64,000 nucleotides of DNA from Tahibacter harae (GTDB lineage Bacteria > Pseudomonadota > Gammaproteobacteria > Xanthomonadales > Rhodanobacteraceae), in contig NZ_JANFQO010000002.1 in NCBI RefSeq assembly GCF_024437735.1, forward strand, positions 310,001-374,000, read 5' to 3'. Positions 25,941 through 36,474 of this stretch are shown here, in pieces; within the stretch, counting starts at the first letter, position 1; each line of letters opens with the position of its first letter. A program made the position numbers and the translations under genes. Under the pieces are notes generated by a model. It ran no database searches and was not told the DNA's origin. It saw only the letters and a list, made by a program, of their open reading frames with translations.

Positions 25941-27194
25941 TCACTGCGGATGGCGTACCTGGCCCGTACCGCTGACCACGTAGCGTTCTATGGTCAGCGA
26001 TTCCGCGCCCATGGGCCCGTAGGCATGCAGGCGCGTGGTGGAAATGCCGATCTCGGCGCCCAGGCCCAGCTCGCCGCCGTCGCTGAAGCGCGAGGAGGCA
26101 TTGACCATGATTACCGCCGAACGCAGCGCCTGGATGAAGCGCTGCGCCTGGACCGGCTCGCCGGTGGCTATGACTTCGGTGTGGTCCGAACCGTAGCTGC
26201 GGATATGCGCAATCGCCGCGTCGAGATCGTCCACCACGCGCACCGCCAGCACCAGGTCGAGGAATTCCGCCGCGTAGTCCGCCTCGGTGGCCGGCCGGCT
26301 GCCGGCGAAGAAGTCGCGGCTGCGTTCGCAGGCGCGCACTTCCACGCCGCGCGCCTGCAGTGCCGCGGCCGCCAGCGGCAGGAACTGCGCGGCGATATCC
26401 GCGTGCACCAGCAGGGTTTCCAGCGCATTGCACACGGCCGGGCGCGTGGTCTTGCCGTCGATCAGCAGGCGCAGCGCCAGCGCGGTGTCGGCCGAGGCAT
26501 CGACGAACAGGTGGCATACGCCTTTGTAGTGCTTGATCAGCGGCACGCGCGCATGCTCGGCGGCGAAGCGGATCAGGCCTTCGCCGCCGCGCGGTATGGC
26601 CAGGTCGACGATGTCGCTGAGCTGCAGCAATTCGATGATGCTTTCGCGGCGCAGGTCTTCCAGCGCGCTGACCGCCGCGGCACCGATGCAGCAGGCTTGC
26701 AGCGCCCGGCCCAGCGATGCGGCGATGGCGCGGTTGGACTGCTGCGCCTCGGAACCGCCGCGCAGGATCACGCCGTTGCCGGCCTTGAGGCAGAGTGCGG
26801 CCGCATCGGCCGTCACGTTGGGCCTGGCCTCGTAGATCATTGCGATCACGCCCAGCGGCACGCGCACACGCTGTATGCGCAGGCCGTCGGCGCGCACGTC
26901 CTCGCGCGTGACCTGCCCCACCGGATCGGGCAGGCCGGCCACATGGCGCACGCCGGCAACCATGGCGGCGACGCGCGCGGCATCCAGGCGCAGCCGGTCC
27001 AGCAGCGCCGCCGCCGTGCCACGGGCCGCGGCGGCCGCCATGTCCTGCGCATTGGCGGCGAGGATCTGCGCTTCGTCCTGCTCCAACTGCGCGGCCATGG
27101 CCAGCAGCAGTGCGTTGCGCGCGGCGCCGTCGAGTTCAGCCACCTGCTGCGCGGCCGCGCGGCAGGCCAGGGCTTGTTCCTTTACCGTGCGCAT
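25941..27194 (-). CDS. proA: Gamma-glutamyl phosphate reductase
   Basis: The product has 417 residues. It carries the cofactor-binding pattern [29 protein letters not shown], the nucleophile region [11 protein letters not shown], and the C-terminal [28 protein letters not shown] typical of ProA. It reduces gamma-glutamyl phosphate to glutamate semialdehyde, the second step of proline synthesis. It is the last gene of the arg-pro operon. Its ATG overlaps the proB stop (TGATG). Confidence 0.96.
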
Positions 27195-28348
27195 CAGGCG
27201 CCGACTCCGCTGAGGGCGACCAGATCGTCGCGGTGGACCACGGTCTCGCCGTAGCTGTAGCCGAGCAGGCTCTCGATTTCGGCCGATTTGCGCCCGGCGA
27301 TGCGGCGCACTTCCGCGGCGGCGTACTGGCTGATGCCGCGGGCAATGCTGAAGACCTGGTCCTGCTGCTCAGTCTCGATTTCCACCATGTCGCCACGGGC
27401 GAATTCGCCGCGCACGCCGACAATGCCGCCGGGCAGCAGCGAAGCACCGCCGCTGCCCAGGGCGCGCGCCGCGCCCGCATCGACGCGGATGCAGCCGCCG
27501 GCCAGCGGCGCATGGCGCAGCCAGTATTTGCGCGCATGAAGGCGGGTTTCCGCGGCGCGGAAGCGGGTGCCGCGCAGGCGGTCCTGTGCCAGCAGGCGCA
27601 GCGCCTGCGCATCCGTGCCGTTAAACAGCAGCGTGCCGATGCCCGCGGCGGCGGCCTTCGTCGCCGCTTCCAGCTTGGTGCGCATGCCGCCGGTGCCGGC
27701 GCTGCTGCCGGCGCCGCCGGCCATGGCGAAGATGGCCGGCGTCACCGCGGCAACGTCGTCCACGGGCACGGCGGTGGGGTCGGTGCGCGGATTGGCCGAA
27801 TACAGGCCGTCGATATCGGTCGCGATAAGCAGCAGGTCCGCATCGACCAGGGCGGCGACGATGGCGGCCAGATTGTCGTTGTCGCCGAGTTTGAGTTCGT
27901 CCACGGCAACGGTGTCGTTCTCGTTCACCACCGGCAGCGCGCCCAGCGCGAGCAGTTCGCGCAGGGTGGCGCGGGCGTTGAGGTAGCGGCGCCGGTTGCG
28001 CAGGTCGTCATGGGTCAGCAGCACCTGGGCCACGGGCCGGTCGAAGAAGCGCTGCCACAGCGCAACCACCGTGGTCTGGCCCAGCGCCGCCAGCGCCTGG
28101 CGCGCGGCCAGGCCGTGCGCGGTCTCGGGCTGGGCGCGCACCAGCGCGCGGCCGGCGGCGACGGCGCCGGAAGAAACCAGCACCACCTCGCGCCCGGCGC
28201 GATGGCTGGCGGCGATGAATTCCGCCAGGCCCAGCGCGTAGCGCGTGCTCAGGCCGCCGCCGTTGGCGGCGAGCAGGCTGCTGCCCACCTTGAGCACGGC
28301 ACGGCGCCAGCGCGGCAGCTCCTGTTCGCTGTGGCGCCGCGCAGTCAT
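27194..28348 (-). CDS. proB: Glutamate 5-kinase with PUA domain
   Basis: The product has 384 residues. The kinase domain has [43 protein letters not shown] and [14 protein letters not shown]-terminal PUA domain covers about 285-384 ([26 protein letters not shown]). It phosphorylates glutamate, the first and feedback-controlled step of proline synthesis. The ATG at 28348 overlaps the argH stop by ATGA, and the stop overlaps proA. Confidence 0.96.
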
Positions 28349-29646
28349 GCGGCGCCGCCCAGCGCGGCCCAGCGCTGCTGCAATTCGTCCAGGCGCAGAT
28401 CCGCCGCGCCGCCCGGCGACACGCGCGCATCCAGGCTGGACTGCGGCGTGCGTCCCTGCCCCGCCTCGGTCGCGGCTTCGGCAGCGCGGCGATAGGCTTC
28501 GCGGAACGGCACGCCCGCGGCGGCCTGTTCTATGGCGACATCGGTGGCGTACATGCTGGGCTCGATCGCGGCTTGCAGCGCCGGGGCATTCCATTGCAGC
28601 GCCTGGAGCAGTCCCGGCAGCAACGCCAGCGCGCCCAGGCCGCGGCCGAAGCCGTGCACGATGGAGCCCTTGCTGAACTGCAGGTCGCGCTGGTAGCCGG
28701 AAGGCAGCGAAAGCAACTGTTCCACTTCGCAGCGTGCCGCGGCGACGGCGGAATAGCTCGCCCGCATCAGCTCGACCACATCCGGATTGCGCTTGTTCGG
28801 CATGATGGACGAACCCGTCGTATACGCCGCCGGCAGCTGCACGAAGCCATATTCGGCAGTGGTGAACAGGCTCAGGTCCCAGGCCAGGCGGCGCAGGTCC
28901 AGCAGGGCCGAGGCCAGCGCATCCAGCGCGGCCAGCTCGAACTTGCCGCGGGACAGCTGCGCATAGATCGGCGAAACCTGCAGCCGCGCGAAGCCGAGTT
29001 TCTGCGTGGTGAAATCGCGGTCCAGCGGCAGGTTGACGCCGTAGCCGGCGGCGGTGCCCAGCGGGTTGGCATCGATCAGGTCCAGCGTATCGGCGGCGCG
29101 GCGCGCATCGTCGATGAAGGCTTCGGCGAAACCGGCGAACCACATTGCCGTAGACGAGACTACCGCGCGCTGCAGATGGGTATAGCCCGGCATGGGCAGC
29201 GATTGCGCCGCGGCGCGGTCCAGGCAGACGCGCGCCGCAGCGCGGCAGTGTTCGATCAAAACGCGCAGCTGGGCCTTGAGCCACAGGCGCGAGGCGACCA
29301 GCACCTGGTCGTTGCGGCTGCGGCCGGTATGCACCTTGCGGCCGGCGTCGCCCAGGCGTTCGGTTAGGCGTGCCTCGATGGCGGAATGGCCGTCCTCGTA
29401 GCGCTCGTCCAGCACGAAGCGGCCGGCGCGGAAATCCTGCGCCAGCAGATCGAGTTCGCGCAGCAGCGCGCTGCATTCCTCGGTGCTGAGCAGGCCGATG
29501 CGGGCGAGGCCTTCCACATGCGCCTGGCTGGCTTCCACGTCGTACAGGAACAGCTCGCGGTCCAGCAGTACGTCGTCGCCCGCCAGGAAACGCATGATGC
29601 GCGGATCGACTTCCACGCCTTGCTTCTGCCACAACAGGCCGCTCAT
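28345..29646 (-). CDS. argH: Argininosuccinate lyase
   Basis: The product has 433 residues. The fumarase/aspartase superfamily signature [12 protein letters not shown] is present, together with [10 protein letters not shown] and PGYTHLQRA. It splits argininosuccinate into arginine and fumarate, the last step of arginine synthesis. It overlaps argC upstream and proB downstream by ATGA, so translation is coupled along the operon. Confidence 0.97.
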
Positions 29647-30602
29647 GCGTCGTCTCCGGTCAGGGGAATCGCCAGGTGCTCGGGCAGGCCCAGCGCGGTA
29701 TTGAGGTTCTGCAGCGCCTGGGTGGCGGCGCCCTTGAGCAGGTTGTCCAGCGTGGCCACGACGACGATGCGCTTGCCGCCAGGGGCCAGCGCGAACGCGC
29801 CGATCTCGGCGTGATGCTTGCCGGCGATGCGGCTGACCCAGGGGGCATCATCCAGCAGCCGCACCAGGGCTTCGCCTGCATAACGCTGCGCATACAGCGT
29901 GCGGATCGCGTCGCGCGTCGCGGGCTGCTGCAGCCACAGGTTGGCAGTCAGGGTGATGCCGCGGAAATGCGGCGCCACATGCGGCATGAATTCCACCGGC
30001 AGGCCCAGTTGCTCGCTGACTTCGCGCTCGTGCACATGGCCGGTGAGCGAATACGGCATCAGGTTGTCGCGCAGCTTTTCGACGTCGTTCTTGTCCGACG
30101 GCGTGGTGCCCGCGCCGGAATAGCCCGATACGCCGAAGCAGGCCGGCGGTGCGGCCAGCTGATCCCTGAGGGGTGCTATCGCCAGCTGCATGGCCGTGGC
30201 ATAGCAGCCTGGATTGCTAATGCGGCGCTGGCCGCGGTAGTTGTGCCGGGTCAGTTCGGGCAGGCCGTAATACCACTGCTTGTCGAAGCGGTAGTCCGCG
30301 GAAAGATCCACGATCACGCGCTGCGGCGCGACCGCATCGATCGCCGCCACGTACGGCGCGGCCTTGCCGTTGGGCAGGGCCAGCACCACGGCATCGACAG
30401 GCTGCTGCGCGGCGGCTTCGGCGTCGAGGTTGCTGTAGCGCAGTTCGCCACGGTAGCCGGCGACGTGATCGGCCACGCGCTGTCCATCCAGCTCGCGCGA
30501 GGAGACAAAGGCCAGCTCCAGCTGCGGATGGCCCGCAACCAGGCGTATGAGTTCGGCGCCGGTATGCCCACGCGCGCCGATGATGCCCAGGGTGTGTTTC
30601 AT
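29643..30602 (-). CDS. argC: N-acetyl-gamma-glutamyl-phosphate reductase
   Basis: The product has 319 residues. The NAD(P)-binding start is [18 protein letters not shown], and the catalytic Cys lies in [15 protein letters not shown] near residue 137. [17 protein letters not shown] and the later [12 protein letters not shown] are typical of ArgC. It reduces N-acetylglutamyl phosphate to the semialdehyde. It starts 8 bases after the argB stop and overlaps argH by ATGA. Confidence 0.96.
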
Positions 30603-30609
30603 GCCTGCC

Positions 30610-31926
30610 TCAGCCGATCAGGGTTGCGGGCCGCTCGCGGCAATGCGCGACACAGCGGGCGATCAGGTCGAAGTCGCCCAGTCCATACCAGAACACTTTC
30701 CATTTTTCCTGTTTGTAGCATCCGTCCGACTCGGCATAGTAGAACGGATTGACCAGGTTGCCGTGGCGCGAACGCCAGAACAGGCGCGGATTTTCCTCGC
30801 GCATGACCTGCCAGACGGCGCGGCCCAGGCCTTCGCCCTGGGCCTCGTCCAGTACGGCGAACTTGTCGAGATAGGTCAGACCTTCGGCCTCGGTCAGGAT
30901 TACCGCGGTGCGGTAGTTCTCGCTGACGTAGACCCGGAACGGCGTAGTGCGCGCGAAATAGTCCTCGACCAGGCGGCGGCCGAAACTGGATTCGATCAGG
31001 CCGCGCAGGCGCGCCTGATCCACGCCGTCCCAGCTGGTGAAACGCAGCACTTTTTCGCCGCGGCGGATCAGCGTGCCCGAACCCTTGTGGGTGAACAGCT
31101 CCTTGGCCAGTTCGGCCGGGCGCGTGATCGACACCGACGAGGCCAGCGGCAGGTTCTCCAGCAGATCCTTGATCTGCTCGATCTTCAGGCGCATGCCGCC
31201 GTTGATCCAGGGCTGGCTCATCAGATGATCGTATTCGGTGGACAGGTTGATCGAATCGATCACCTTGCCCTCGCCATCGAGCAGGCCGCCGGTGCCGGTG
31301 AGGAAAATGATCTTGTACGGCTGCAGCACCTGCACCAGTTCGTTCGCGGCGAAATCGGCGTTGATGTTGAGGATCTGGCCGCTGGGCGTCTCGCCCAGGC
31401 TGGCGATGACCGGGATGGAGCCGGCGTTGAGGCTGGCCTCGATCGGCGCCAGGTTCACCGCCTGCACTTCGCCGACCAGGCCCAGGCGTTCGGCATCGAG
31501 GAAACGCGATTCAAACACACCGCCGACCACCGAAGTCGCGCGCACATCCAGGGTCTGCAGCGATTCGACCAGGCGCAGGTTCTCGGTCTGCATCACCCGG
31601 CGCACGATGGCCAGGGCCTCGGGCGTGGTCACGCGCAGGCCGTCGACGGTCTGCTTGACGATGCCGGCGGCGGACAGCTGCTCGTCCAGCTGCGGCCCGG
31701 CGCCGTGCACCACGATGGGCGTAAGGCCGACCTGCTGCAGGAAGGCCAGCGACGACGTCAGCGCCTCCAGATCGTCGCGCAGCACCGCGCCGCCGACCTT
31801 GACCACGGCGAAGCGCTTGGCGTCGACCTGGGAGAAGCGCTTGAGATACTGGTGGATCTCCTTGGCGCTGGCCATGCTGGAGAGCAGGCGCACTATGGTC
31901 TGGCGGACGTCCTTATTTGCGGCCAT
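30610..31926 (-). CDS. argB: Bifunctional N-acetylglutamate kinase/synthase (ArgB with C-terminal acetyltransferase domain)
   Basis: The product has 438 residues. Residues 1 to about 285 are the amino-acid kinase domain ([29 protein letters not shown], then [16 protein letters not shown] and [14 protein letters not shown]). Residues about 290-438 are a vertebrate-like GNAT domain ([51 protein letters not shown]). This is the NAGS-K fusion known from Xanthomonas, which both makes and phosphorylates N-acetylglutamate and is inhibited by arginine. Its ATG lies inside the end of the deacetylase gene (14-base overlap). Confidence 0.94.
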
Positions 31927-33022
31927 TTTCGATTATCCGTACGTAGCTTTCGCAGACGCGCTGCAGTTGATCCAGGGCGACCCATTCGTCCGCCGTATGC
32001 GCCTGGGCGATGTCTCCCGGGCCGTAGACGAAGGCGGTGTAGCCGGCGGCGGAGAACAAGGCGGCCTCGGTCCAGAAATCCACCGCGTTGCCGATGGGCA
32101 GGCCGAGTTCGTCGGCGATATCGCGCGCCGCCAGACGGCGCGTTTCCGCCGCGGCGGTATCACCGGCCGGCAGCGACGCGCCGAAGAACGTAGGCTCGAA
32201 TTCCTCCGGGATATAAGGCCCGAGCTGGCGGAAGGTCTGCAGCAGTTCGTCCGTGTCCATGCTCGGCAGGGGGCGGAAGCCAAAGCGCACCTCGCAGCTG
32301 GGCGCAATCACATTGGCCTTGATGCCGCCTTCGACGCGGCCGATGTTGAAGCGCAGCCCGGTCAGGCCGCCGAAGCGGTGATGGGCCAGCGATTCCACAT
32401 GGTTCAGCGCGCGCTCGCCCCAGCGCAGAGCCTGGTGCACCGCGCTGTCGCCCGCGGCATTCGCACCCGAGGCATGTCCGGCACGCCCGGCGAAGCGCAT
32501 GCGCACCGAGCTGATGCCGCGGTGGGCCAGCACGGCCTCGGCGCGGGTGGGCTCGGCCACGAGCACGGCGTCGAAGGCGCGCGGCTGCTTGAGAAAACCG
32601 GCGATGCAGCGCGCATCGTTGGCTTCCTCGTCGGAAGAAAACAGGAAGGCGCAGTCGCCGTCGCTGGCGCGCGCGGCGGCGACCATGGCGGCGGCGGCGC
32701 CCTTGATGTCGCAGGCCCCCATGCCTATGGCGCGGTCCGCGGTAACCAGCAGGTCGAAGGGATCGCGCGTCCAGGTCGACGAAACCGGCACCGTATCCAG
32801 ATGCACATTGATCAGGAAGCGCGGATTGCCGCGCACCGAATACAGGCTGACCGCGCCGGCGCCGAAATCGGTCAGCTCGTGGCGGAAGCCCGGCAGCTGC
32901 GCCTGCAGATAATCGAAGATGCCGCCGGTGCCGATGGCCCGCGGCGGATTCTGCGTATCGCAGGCGACCAGCGCGCGCAGATGCGCGAGGCAGGCATCCA
33001 GCAGGGGTTGGCCGGTGCTCAC
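31913..33022 (-). CDS. argE: M20-family deacetylase, probably N-acetyl-L-citrulline deacetylase
   Basis: The product has 369 residues. M20 metal-binding features are the first His in [10 protein letters not shown], the bridging Asp in [11 protein letters not shown], and the Glu pair in [12 protein letters not shown] dimerisation domain lies at about 175-280. Orthologues in this operon context in Xanthomonas act on N-acetylcitrulline rather than acetylornithine, matching the AOTCase at 34278. That assignment rests on context, not on residues I can read. The start codon is GTG at 33020-33022, overlapping the argG stop. Confidence 0.88.
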
Positions 33023-34230
33023 TGGCGGTTGACCTCGGCCCAGAGCGTGGAACTCATGCCGTACAGGCGGATGAAGCCTTCGGCCTCGGCCACGCCCCAG
33101 TCGGCCGACTGGGCATAGGTCGCGCCCTTGGCGTTGAGGATATGCGGCGACTTGACCGCGACGGCGTGCACCGTGGCGCCCTGGGTTTCGAGCGTGACTT
33201 CGCCGTTGACGCAGGCCTGGCTGGAGGCCAGGAACGCTTCCAGATCGCGCTTGAGCGGATCGTGGTAGAAGCCTTCGTAGACCAGCTCCACCCAGCGCCG
33301 CGCCACTTCCGGCTTGAAGCGGTTCTGGTGGCGCGACAGCACGGCTTCTTCCAGCGCGCGGTGCGCGGCCAGCAGGGCGACCAGACCCGGCGCTTCAAAG
33401 ATGATGCGGCCCTTGAGGCCGATGGTGGTGTCGCCGGTATAGATGCCGCGGCCCACACCGTAGGGCGCGAGCAGCGCGTTGAGCCGGGCGAGGATGGCGT
33501 GGCCCGCCATGCGCTCACCGTCGAGCGCCACCGCCTCGCCCTGCTCGAAACTCAGGCGCACACGCAGCGCCTGCGCCGGCCATTCCGCGCGCGGCGCGCA
33601 CCAGCCGCGGGCGCCCTCGCCCGGCGCTTCCCAGCGGTCGATCTCGCCGCCGGACATGGTCAGGCCGAGCAGGTTCTCGTTGATGGTGTAGCTCTTCTGC
33701 TTGGCCCGTACTTCGTAGCCGCGTTCTTCCAGATAACGCTGCTCGTAGGCGCGCACCTCCTTGTGTTCGCGCTGGATCTCGCGGATCGGGGCGATGATTT
33801 CATAGTCGCCCAGGGCCTTGACCGCGAGGTCGAAGCGCACCTGGTCGTTGCCCATGCCGGTGCAGCCGTGGGCGATGATGCGGCTGCCGATCTCGTCGCA
33901 GCGGCGCAGCGCGGCCTCGACGATGAGATAGCGGTCGGACACCAGCAGCGGATACTGGCCCTGGTAGCCCTCGCCCGCCCAGACGAAGGGCTTGACGAAG
34001 CCGCTCCATATCGCCGGGCCGCCGTCGACCGTGACATGACTGGCCGCGCCCAGCTCCGCCGCGCGCGCCTCGATGTAGGCGCGCTCCTCCGCATCCACGC
34101 CGCCGGTGTCGGCGAACACGGTATGCACGGCGTAGCCGCGCTCCTTCAGGTAGGGAATGCAGAAGCTGGTGTCCAGGCCGCCGGAAAAGGCGAGCACGAC
34201 ATCCTTGGCGGCGCCGGTGGAATCGGTCAT
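33019..34230 (-). CDS. argG: Argininosuccinate synthase
   Basis: The product has 403 residues. The N-type ATP pyrophosphatase loop is [42 protein letters not shown] and [10 protein letters not shown] are typical of ArgG. It joins citrulline and aspartate with ATP. I chose the ATG at 34230, preceded by a GGAAAGG-like Shine-Dalgarno on the minus strand, rather than a longer Arg-rich extension. It lies 47 bases after the argF' stop and overlaps argE by GTGA. Confidence 0.95.
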
Positions 34231-34277: not shown

Positions 34278-35285
34278 TCAGCGCTGCGCCAGCAGCGCGG
34301 CCATGACGGCTTTCTGCACGTGCAGGCGGTTCTCGGCCTCGTCGATGGCGATGCAGGCCGGCGAATCCATCACGCCGTCGGTGGCCTTGACGTTGCGCCG
34401 CAGCGGCAGGCAATGGCTGAACACGCCGTTGTTGGTCAGCGCCATCTTGGCTTCGTCGACCATGAAATGCCGGTGCGCCTCGCGGATCGGCTTTTCCTGC
34501 TCCCAGCGGCCGAAGAACGGCAGCGCGCCCCAGCTCTTGGCGTAGACCACGTCGGCACCGGTATAGGCGGTTTCGACATCATGGCTGATCGTGAGCGAGC
34601 CGCCGCTTTCGGCCGCATTGGCCTTGGCCAGCTCCATGTAGCGCGAATCCAGCACGTAGTCCGGCGTGGGGCACAGCAGCGTGACGTCCATGCCGAAGCG
34701 CGTGGCGATCAGCAGCGCGGAATTGGCCACGGCCGTATTCAGCGGCTTGGGGTGATAGGTCCAGGTCAGCACGTACTTCTTCTTGTCCAGCGTGCCGAAG
34801 TGTTCCTGCAGGGCGAGGATATGAGCCAGTTCCTGACAGGGATGGGTGATGGTCTCCAGGTTGATCACCGGCACCGTGGAATACTGGGCGAAGGCCTTCA
34901 GCACCAGATCCTCGCGGTCCACTTCCCACTGCTGGAACTTGGGAAAGGCGCGCACGCCGATCAGGTCCACATAGCGCGACAGGACGCGCGCGACTTCGGC
35001 GATGTGTTCCTCGGTATCGCCTTCCATCACCGCGCGCGGCGCGAACTCGATCGGCCAGGCGGCCTTGCCCGGCTCCAGCACCACGGCGTGGCCGCCCAGC
35101 TGGAAGGCGCCCAGCTCGAAGCTGGTGCGGGTACGCATGGAGGGATTGAAGAACAGCAGCGCGATTGACTTGCCGGCCATCTGCTGGCCCAGGCGGCTCT
35201 GCTTGAAGCGGGCGGCCTGCTGCAGCAGGGCGTCCAGCTCGGCGCGGGACCAGTCGTTGGTGTTGAGAAAGTGGCGCAGAGTCAT
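34278..35285 (-). CDS. argF': N-acetyl-L-ornithine carbamoyltransferase (AOTCase)
   Basis: The product has 335 residues. It has the carbamoyl-phosphate loop [26 protein letters not shown], and the C-terminal [13 protein letters not shown]. The Lys in that last motif corresponds to the modified lysine described for the Xanthomonas AOTCase, and ordinary ornithine carbamoyltransferases read HCLPA instead. It therefore makes N-acetylcitrulline from N-acetylornithine and carbamoyl phosphate. It is the first structural gene of the operon. The ATG at 35285 is preferred because the in-frame upstream extension runs through the terminator hairpin. Confidence 0.93.
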
Positions 35286-35343: not shown

Positions 35344-35370
35344 AAAAAACCCGGCGCTGGGCCGGGTTTT
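35344..35370 (-). terminator. Intrinsic terminator in the arg operon leader (putative attenuator)
   Basis: On the minus strand a 10-bp stem (AAAACCCGGC and GCCGGGTTTT) with a 5-base loop is followed by an unbroken run of T. It ends about 58 bases before the argF' start and 30 bases after a short Arg-containing frame. The 5' arm contains ACCCGGC, exactly complementary to GCCGGGT at 35403-35409 in the last codons of that frame. The two pairings are mutually exclusive, as in amino-acid operon attenuators. Confidence 0.75.
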
Positions 35371-35400
35371 CGTCGAAACACATGAAAGCTGTGCGACAAC

Positions 35401-35505
35401 CTACCCGGCTGATGTGGTCGGGAACGGTCGGCGCGCGCGCGAAGTCATGCCGGCGGCCATGCGGGCGCTGGTCAGGATCTCGGCGTCGGAATAGTTCGGA
35501 TTCAT
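35401..35505 (-). CDS. Putative Arg leader peptide of the arg-pro operon
   Basis: A 34-codon frame runs from ATG 35505 to TAG at 35401-35403. It has arginines at positions 15, 23, 25 and 26, with the run Arg-Ala-Arg-Arg eight codons before the end. Its final codons (GCC GGG TAG) carry the segment complementary to the 5' arm of the downstream terminator. A ribosome that stalls at the Arg codons would leave this segment free to form an antiterminator; one that reaches the stop would cover it. No clear Shine-Dalgarno is seen, and internal ATGs at codons 16 and 20 could also start translation. It might instead be an ordinary small protein. Confidence 0.5.
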   Translation of the reverse strand: MNPNYSDAEILTSARMAAGMTSRARRPFPTTSAG

Positions 35506-35532: not shown

Positions 35533-35561
35533 ATGATGCACGGAAGTTTTCCGCGGCGCAA
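35533..35561 (-). promoter_or_regulatory. Weak candidate promoter of the arg leader
   Basis: On the minus strand, TTGCGC (35561-35556) and CATCAT (35538-35533) are 17 bases apart. Each matches the sigma-70 consensus at three or four of six positions. Transcription would begin near 35526, just before the leader frame. Confidence 0.3.
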
Positions 35562-35564
35562 CAA

Positions 35565-35600
35565 CACTAAGGAATAAGGGCCGGCATGGAAGCCGGCCCT
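35565..35600 (-). terminator. Terminator of the glycine-zipper gene
   Basis: Arms AGGGCCGGC (35577-35585) and GCCGGCCCT (35592-35600) form a perfect 9-bp stem with a 6-base loop. On the minus strand it is followed by TTATTCCTTAG. It lies between the gene at 35710 and the arg leader promoter and would separate the two units. Confidence 0.65.
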
Positions 35601-35709: not shown

Positions 35710-36252
35710 TCAGTCGGCTGGCGTGACGCTGACGCGGACGCGGATGCGCTCGCCTGGATCGAAGCTCAGCCGCGACATGTAGGTTTCGCCGCGGTAGCGG
35801 TATTCCACGTCGTAGCCGTTGATGCGGCGCTCTTCGTAGCCGCCGTCGACTTCGCGGCAGCGGCGCTCGCTGCTGACATAGGTTTCGTCGTCGCGGCGCG
35901 CGGCGCTGTTGCCGATGGCGCCGCCGGCCACGGCGCCGGCTATGGTCGCCGCCTTGCGGCCGTCGCCCTTGCCGACCTGGTTGCCCAGTGCACCGCCGAT
36001 GATGGCGCCCAGCACGGTCGCGCCGGCGTTGTTGCCGCGGCGGTCTTCGCGCCGGGTGACTTCCGTGTCGTAGCACTCGCGCTCGGGACGGCTGACACGT
36101 TCGTAGGTGTAGATCGGGTCGACGCGGACCACATCGGCCCAGGCAAAGTGGACGCCTTCATCGCCATAGTCGCGCCGCTCGTTCTGGGCGTAGGCGGTGG
36201 GCAGGACCGAAAGCAGTACAGCAGCAAGCAACAACGGGAACCGACCTGACAT
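35710..36252 (-). CDS. Exported glycine-zipper protein (17 kDa surface antigen-like)
   Basis: The product has 180 residues with a signal peptide (MSGRFPLLLAAVLLSVLPTAYA). A charged region with YTYERVSRPERECYDTEV follows. The glycine zipper (about 95-135) reads NAGATVLGAIIGGALGNQVG and then TIAGAVAGGAIGNS, the pattern of 2TM glycine-zipper envelope proteins. The C-terminal part has YEERRINGYDVEYRYRG. It probably sits in the envelope, possibly tied to the outer membrane; its exact role is unknown. The ATG at 36252 has GGAG 7 bases upstream. It is transcribed toward the arg operon but separated by a terminator. Confidence 0.85.
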   Translation of the reverse strand: MSGRFPLLLAAVLLSVLPTAYAQNERRDYGDEGVHFAWADVVRVDPIYTYERVSRPERECYDTEVTRREDRRGNNAGATVLGAIIGGALGNQVGKGDGRKAATIAGAVAGGAIGNSAARRDDETYVSSERRCREVDGGYEERRINGYDVEYRYRGETYMSRLSFDPGERIRVRVSVTPAD

Positions 36253-36474
36253 CTTGCATCTCCGAAAGGCTGGCGGAGCGCGCGGGCCGAGGCATCGGCT
36301 TGGGCCACGGGCTTCCGGCTGCCGGCCGGAAGGTGCGCGTTCCACCATAGACTTGATGAGAATTTAACCTCAACAGGCTGAATCGGCGATAAGGCAAACG
36401 CAAGCTCCGCCAAGCTGGCCGTGGACCTGAACGATGCCGGCCACCGCCCCGCCCAGGCGCCGCAGCCGGCCTGC

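Follow-up and report, generated by a model that had tools for sequence, protein, structure and literature searches.

A probable arginine-sensing leader-peptide attenuator ahead of argF'GEBCH-proBA in Tahibacter harae and related Lysobacterales

Ahead of argF' in Tahibacter harae there is very probably a transcription attenuator of the ribosome-mediated kind, which would sense the charging of tRNA-Arg and regulate argF'GEBCH-proBA. In the 64,000-nucleotide stretch of DNA analysed here (the window), the support consists of a short leader frame, its codons, a promoter-like motif, two alternative stems, their conservation among relatives and the order of folding in silico; ribosome stalling and a response to arginine are what we infer. 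As in known attenuators, a short frame lies upstream (judged from codon conservation) and contains a cluster of codons for the end product, arginine. An intrinsic terminator precedes argF' and, on sequence and folding, an antiterminator shares its 5' arm and excludes it.

In the proposed mechanism, transcription would start just ahead of the short leader frame. With tRNA-Arg(ACG) charged, the ribosome would reach the stop codon, which overlaps segment 2, and would cover GCCGGGT; with segment 2 covered, segments 3 and 4 would form the terminator. With tRNA-Arg(ACG) uncharged, the ribosome would wait on CGN codons, above all CGA, where its front edge would stop short of segment 2. Segment 2 would then be free to pair with segment 3 once the latter is made, and RNA polymerase would read into the operon.

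The first-pass annotation of this DNA had proposed the logic of the his/trp/leu attenuators and stated that attenuation of an acetylcitrulline-type arg operon by an Arg leader was not known to be described. The conserved frame, the Arg codons and both stems lend the former support at the level of sequence. As to the latter, the literature searched, which many subscription papers fall outside, offered no account of an arg biosynthetic operon under a leader-peptide attenuator specific for arginine, and no measurements of the arginine response of this leader.

Leader frame, likely promoter and downstream genes

Direct reading of the minus strand agreed with the annotated arrangement in every part (Table 1). 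The 34-codon frame runs from ATG 35505 to TAG 35401, and eight codons separate the Arg-Ala-Arg-Arg run (35439-35428) from its end. After a gap of 30 bases from the stop comes the terminator hairpin with its T-run (35344-35370), whose stem comprises ten pairs (35370-35361 with 35355-35346), and then argF'. GCCGGGT (35403-35409) pairs exactly with ACCCGGC of the terminator 5' arm (35361-35367), again as annotated. A plain consensus scan returned 2 terminator-like sites, the terminator region among them, versus 0.8 expected.

Table 1 Features of the leader, its likely promoter and the downstream genes in the window
Feature	Position	Strand	Basis
Leader peptide frame, 34 codons, MNPNYSDAEILTSARMAAGMTSRARRPFPTTSAG	ATG 35505 to TAG 35401 (35401..35505)	minus	direct reading and conservation
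Control codons CGC GCG CGC CGA (R-A-R-R)	35428..35439	minus	Arg kept in 151/151 unique leaders
Segment 2, GCCGGGT, covering the final two sense codons and first stop-codon base	35403..35409	minus	
Segment 3, ACCCGGC, complementary to segment 2	35361-35367	minus	
Predicted antiterminator hairpin (segments 2 and 3 paired, and an inner stem)	35361..35409	minus	folding
Predicted intrinsic terminator (segments 3 and 4), T-run 35349-35344	35344..35370	minus	sequence, pairing, folding
Likely promoter, TTGCGC (35561-35556), 17 nt, CATCAT (35538-35533)	35533..35561	minus	weak, 7/12 consensus matches
argF', N-acetylornithine carbamoyltransferase, first structural gene	34278..35285	minus	NF003384, 607.5 bits, cut-off 288
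argG, argininosuccinate synthase	33019..34227	minus	NCBIfam
argE-type deacetylase (NCBIfam name: acetylornithine deacetylase)	31913..33022	minus	
argB, acetylglutamate kinase, resembling the Xanthomonas bifunctional enzyme	30610..31926	minus	NCBIfam
argC	29643..30602	minus	NCBIfam
argH	28345..29646	minus	NCBIfam
proB, start codon unsettled	27194..28363	minus	NCBIfam
proA, final gene of the run	25941..27194	minus	NCBIfam

Because most of the eight genes overlap or almost touch, argF'GEBCH-proBA is likely to be cotranscribed in full as a single predicted operon. In the accessible part of PMC1865377, the Xanthomonas acetylglutamate kinase enzyme is bifunctional, and the pathway given there suggests acetylcitrulline as the substrate of the argE-type deacetylase.

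The -10 element of the likely promoter ends 27 nt before the leader ATG. Upstream of the ATG, the pattern TTG-N16-18-NANNNT was found in 133 of 151 unique leaders (defined below) versus 5% of shuffles. Of the 82 promoter sites that agreed with the consensus at 7 or more of 12 positions, 63 had the window's arrangement, a spacing of 17 nt and a -10 ending 24-27 nt before the ATG. A stricter general consensus scan of the window gave no promoter-like site ahead of the leader. Between the upstream gene and the leader promoter stands a strong GC hairpin (GGGCCGGC/GCCGGCCC, 35577-35598, minus strand), probably the terminator of the upstream PRK11280-type gene (35710-36348).

Conservation, control codons and range

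Leaders were collected by two routes. Through argF', the best 80 of 199 named relatives were fetched, giving 81 loci with the window, and every one of the 81 has, ahead of argF', an open MTSRARR frame closed by a stop codon. Further leaders were collected through the exact MTSRARR motif in genomes of the order. Pattern-bearing loci numbered 171; five (L134, L144, L151, L155 and L156) had no argF' alongside, were not leader-like and were dropped as coincidental. In all 166 kept leaders, argF' lay 106-414 nt downstream on the same strand, compared with none of the five dropped loci. An automatic rule found a terminator in 164 of the 166, L120 and L072 (which has a stem with a short T-run) being left out, and removal of duplicates reduced these to 151 unique leaders. 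The leader counts are not independent because the named-locus and genome sets overlap; L063 and L150, for instance, lie on contigs of equal length.

Met-Thr-Ser-Arg-Ala-Arg-Arg was unchanged in all 151 unique leaders; the pattern-collected ones had to match, whereas the 81 collected through argF' did not. Beneath this fixed peptide, codons varied synonymously (Thr with four codons, Ala with three, the first Arg with three), which points to a translated frame, and on this codon-level conservation the leader is presumably translated. The residue after RARR varied (P in 139, L in 4, R in 3 and others in 5 of the 151).

Among 299 genomes of the order, 165 contained the MTSRARR pattern and 2 a backward control pattern, the latter counted by eye. 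Sorted by eye from the pattern table, part of whose matching loci were fetched, MTSRARR was present in 76/76 genomes of the window's family (f1), 77/78 of f2, 3/3 of f3 and 8/10 of f4; a single match in f10 was coincidental. Elsewhere in the class, none of 271 genomes carried it (control pattern, 1). The host genome contains no further exact copy, and by eye no other Arg leader was obvious there before carA, argS or argD.

Codon choice in the leader core departs from that in argF'. The core Arg codons are CGT, CGC or CGA in 452 of 453 cases; the remaining three Arg codons (CGG, AGG, AGA) form ~10% of those in argF' versus 1/453 in the core. CGA is the last core Arg codon in 146/151 leaders and accounts for 1.6% of the 1361 argF' Arg codons of the 80 named loci, and the first core codon is CGT in 105/151 leaders versus 11% in argF'. 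All 46 tRNA matches in the host genome (99.5% complete) were typed, giving one tRNA-Arg each with anticodons ACG, CCG, CCT and TCT and none with TCG; with this set, the control codons are those read by tRNA-Arg(ACG). We take A34 of this tRNA to be inosine and CGA to be read slowly. Rare control codons are shared with the leu attenuator, whose CUA, in the accessible part of PMC1183508, exemplifies the biased or rare control codons known elsewhere.

The element proved broader than the first-pass annotation assumed, extending to many families of the order with differing peptides. With a threshold of E 1e-20, 138 of the order's 151 sampled genomes had an argF' match, those lacking one being mostly of f9; identity was ~60% or more in genomes of each of f1-f11 and 39-45% in f12. 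Upstream regions read in 20 genomes of f5-f11 encode differing peptides, and in most of them Arg runs precede a similar terminator. An automatic rule that asks for three or more Arg within five codons, followed by a terminator, accepts 31 of 38 argF' upstream regions from families without MTSRARR; 13% of 680 shuffles from the 34 terminator-bearing regions also pass, so chance may account for some of the 31. The rule missed L161, L164, L166, L168, L169, L171 and L246, and in L161 an Arg run that it rejected is visible by eye.

Peptides around the run in these families (RRRR, RRLRR, RRERR, RRRPRPR) have nothing obvious in common but arginine, and the occurrence of Arg runs before argF' in families with unrelated peptides makes arginine the shared feature. 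Codon choice is biased here as well: counted in 14 of 15 leaders (the Arg motif of L229 was missed by the script, and the argF' background includes L229), with leaders of one family not being independent, 61 of 63 Arg codons are CGT, CGC or CGA, CGA is enriched (20/63 versus 21/245 in argF'; Fisher p 1e-5) and CGG, AGG and AGA are depleted (2/63 versus 75/245; p 9e-7). In four f10 regions (L166, L168, L171 and L246) the rule detects no Arg leader, nor is a convincing terminator of this type present. No ArgR match was found in f10 among the genomes sampled, and its argF' control may have been lost or replaced.

In f1-f4, MTSRARR (window 35428-35448, minus strand) is frozen as a whole, although attenuation needs Arg only, and its Ser codon is TCG in 146/151 leaders versus 39% in argF'; together these suggest an additional RNA or peptide constraint. 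The frozen peptide is more than simple attenuation requires and counts against it, and it remains odd in these four families. One possibility, which we regard as doubtful, is that MTSRARR of f1-f4 has a second job, with the nascent chain helping to hold the ribosome, or the released peptide or terminated RNA (Xoo5, below) acting in trans. Trans action would parallel peTrpL, which is reported to act in this way in the accessible part of PMC7298713. If the nascent chain helps to hold the ribosome, one leader would sense both uncharged tRNA-Arg and a ligand.

It is improbable that the leader belongs with TnaC, SpeFL and the fungal arginine attenuator peptide as a nascent-peptide arrest leader, in which the MTSRARR chain itself would stall the ribosome upon free arginine or another ligand. 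Invariance in 151/151 f1-f4 leaders, including the Arg-free Met-Thr-Ser, argues for such an arrest peptide, but the residue after RARR is unfixed, and in the other families (f5-f11, without MTSRARR) the Arg run occupies the same place within unrelated peptides. Synonymous Arg codons are under selection, in other families too, and this better fits tRNA sensing.

Competing stems and order of folding

Compared with shuffles of the interval that keep its composition, pairing between segments 2 and 3 was stronger at p<=0.05 in 126 of the 151 leaders, and at p<=0.01 in 81 of them. In silico, the emergent RNA formed at least 5 such pairs in 146/151. Segment 2 begins 17-19 nt past the last Arg codon in 138/151 leaders, and the stop lies 24 nt past it in 119/151.

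We aligned 69 of the 151 leaders, at no more than 90% similarity and with L067 and L135 excluded beforehand. The helix of segments 2 and 3 has standard pairs in 95.9% of cells; its third pair (columns 45/111) is C-G in 31 leaders, U-A in 30, U-G in 6 and unpaired in 2. For the antiterminator's inner stem the paired share is only 71.5%, and each pair has gaps in 25-40 rows. In the terminator, 99.0% of cells are paired, and the column pair 111/123 is G-C in 37 leaders and A-U in 32. A one-column shift of partners lowered pairing from 90.3% to 48-49% for the segment 2-segment 3 helix plus inner stem and from 99.0% to 57-67% for the terminator.

For phylogenetic placement, 131 argF' proteins were reduced to 122 with states and to 88 after thinning. 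The key position of the segment 2-segment 3 helix is a Watson-Crick pair in 115 of the 122 loci, a wobble pair in 4 and mismatched (C-A) in 3. On the 88-protein tree, segment 2 changes 4 times and segment 3 changes 5 times; pairs were too scarce for an independent-pairs test to be decisive. Judged from the sequences, the co-change of the stems is real, though few events underlie it. Both comparative checks proposed in the first-pass annotation thus came out in its favour: the frame and its Arg codons are kept (81/81 loci; 151/151 unique leaders), and the two alternative stems stay paired while their bases change, albeit through only 4-5 changes.

The computed folding energy in the window is -23.7 kcal/mol for the antiterminator hairpin and -15.6 kcal/mol for the terminator. 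Folding was followed in silico with the RNA freed ~10 nt past a ribosome on CGA, the ribosome edges being assumed. Pairing of segments 2 and 3 dominated, with P(2:3) = 0.98, until the 3' arm of the terminator was nearly complete, and then fell to 0.76 at 35349 and 0.04 at 35346. With the 3' arm complete, even a ribosome on CGA leaves the terminator preferred at equilibrium (P(3:4) 0.95-0.99). Antitermination would therefore have to be kinetic, the usual case in the his/trp/leu class of attenuators. With the ribosome at the stop codon, only the terminator formed, and the untranslated window leader folded to the terminator (P(3:4) 0.89 by 35352). In the model, this order of folding supports the annotated expectation that a stalled ribosome would allow the antiterminator and a ribosome at the stop codon the terminator.

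The orphan RNA Xoo5 and arginine control without ArgR

In a permissive search of 441 bases, Rfam RF02242 ('Xanthomonadaceae sRNA Xoo5') matched the window leader over its full length with 27 bits (E 0.0013). The score is below the gathering cut-off of 50 bits, and the window leader is not a formal member; by position and sequence it is the same leader. At the gathering threshold, Rfam gave no match in the whole window. Weaker sub-threshold matches within the 441 bases, to rnk_pseudo, anti-hemB and P9, were taken as chance. Among 20 relatives tried, 13 reached the RF02242 cut-off at full length, and the leader core lay inside all 13 matches. In the Rfam consensus, pairs are placed around UCCCA and the UGGGU of segment 2, which bears on a possible protector hairpin of segments 1 and 2 that would bring about termination in the absence of translation. 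In all nine loci checked, the match starts two bases ahead of the leader AUG, making the frame nearly leaderless in those loci; in L037 and L051 the -10 box ends 8 nt before the ATG.

In the accessible parts of Liang et al. 2011 (PMC3039613), Xoo5 of X. oryzae lies between PXO_00354 and PXO_00353, the latter an N-acetylornithine carbamoyltransferase in the proteomics table. There the RNA was seen by RACE, which mapped its 5' end, and by Northern blot, and its expression was unchanged without Hfq. The authors class it as a non-coding sRNA and assign it no function; in those parts nothing links it to arginine, and the main text contains none of the words arginine, argF and leader. Its reported size is 124 nt by RACE and cloning, with Northern bands of ~130 and ~100 nt (PMC3039613, accessible parts). 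The terminated RNA predicted in nine Xoo5-type loci is longer, at 155-162 nt; processing or incomplete cloning is our guess for the difference. By sequence and place (the Rfam matches in relatives and the X. oryzae neighbour gene), Xoo5 appears to be the same RNA as the Arg leader, typed by Rfam as an sRNA gene rather than an attenuator leader, and the Arg leader probably explains this orphan sRNA family.

The Rfam class and the Northern signals would also suit a trans-acting sRNA with its own promoter and terminator, merely located before argF'. We consider this very improbable: the RNA carries a conserved frame, and the control residue of that frame fits the product of the operon; it is reported as Hfq-independent in the accessible parts of PMC3039613, and 166 of the 171 pattern loci precede argF' on its strand, the other five not being leader-like. 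That an ordinary terminator without regulatory use follows a chance frame is scarcely credible, as nothing was found in its favour, frame, codons, spacing and pairing are conserved, and Arg runs recur in other families.

Like the his/trp/leu attenuators of enteric bacteria, the proposed arginine attenuator combines codons for its own amino acid, a terminator before the first gene and a competing antiterminator. It differs from them in its arginine specificity, in control by CGA and other tRNA-Arg(ACG) codons, in the overlap of segment 2 with the stop codon and in a peptide core that is invariant in four families. The speF leader, unlike the Arg leader, controls polyamine synthesis. In Salmonella, arginine likewise acts via this bacterial leader region, according to the accessible part of PMC6386406. 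The cysS leader uORFC-8-2 of Rhodobacterales is also a predicted attenuator with tandem codons of the regulated amino acid, but it concerns cysteine, a tRNA synthetase gene and another order (PMC8632094, accessible part).

Of 151 genomes of the order searched with PF01316, for which E. coli and B. subtilis served as controls and were both positive, 8 contained ArgR, and these belong without exception to f12, one of twelve families sampled; the other 143, including the host genome, gave no match. ArgR is a DNA-binding protein that represses arg genes. It performs the same physiological task as that proposed for the Arg leader, but by protein rather than leader RNA, and among the genomes sampled it is found only in f12. 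With no PF01316 match, the host genes would not fall into an ArgR regulon. In the two f12 regions read (L264, L265), argF' directly follows another gene and no leader is present. An ArgR-like gene lies near the more distant argF' (39-45% identity) of this family.

With the Arg leader, arginine would join the amino acids that leader-peptide attenuators are known to sense, and reading the leader as an attenuator would give the orphan Rfam RNA Xoo5 a job. The near-fixed CGA as last control codon, together with the enrichment of CGA in leaders with other peptides, offers a sharp test of selective-charging theory. The leader is also a possible answer to how most sampled Lysobacterales control arginine synthesis without ArgR.
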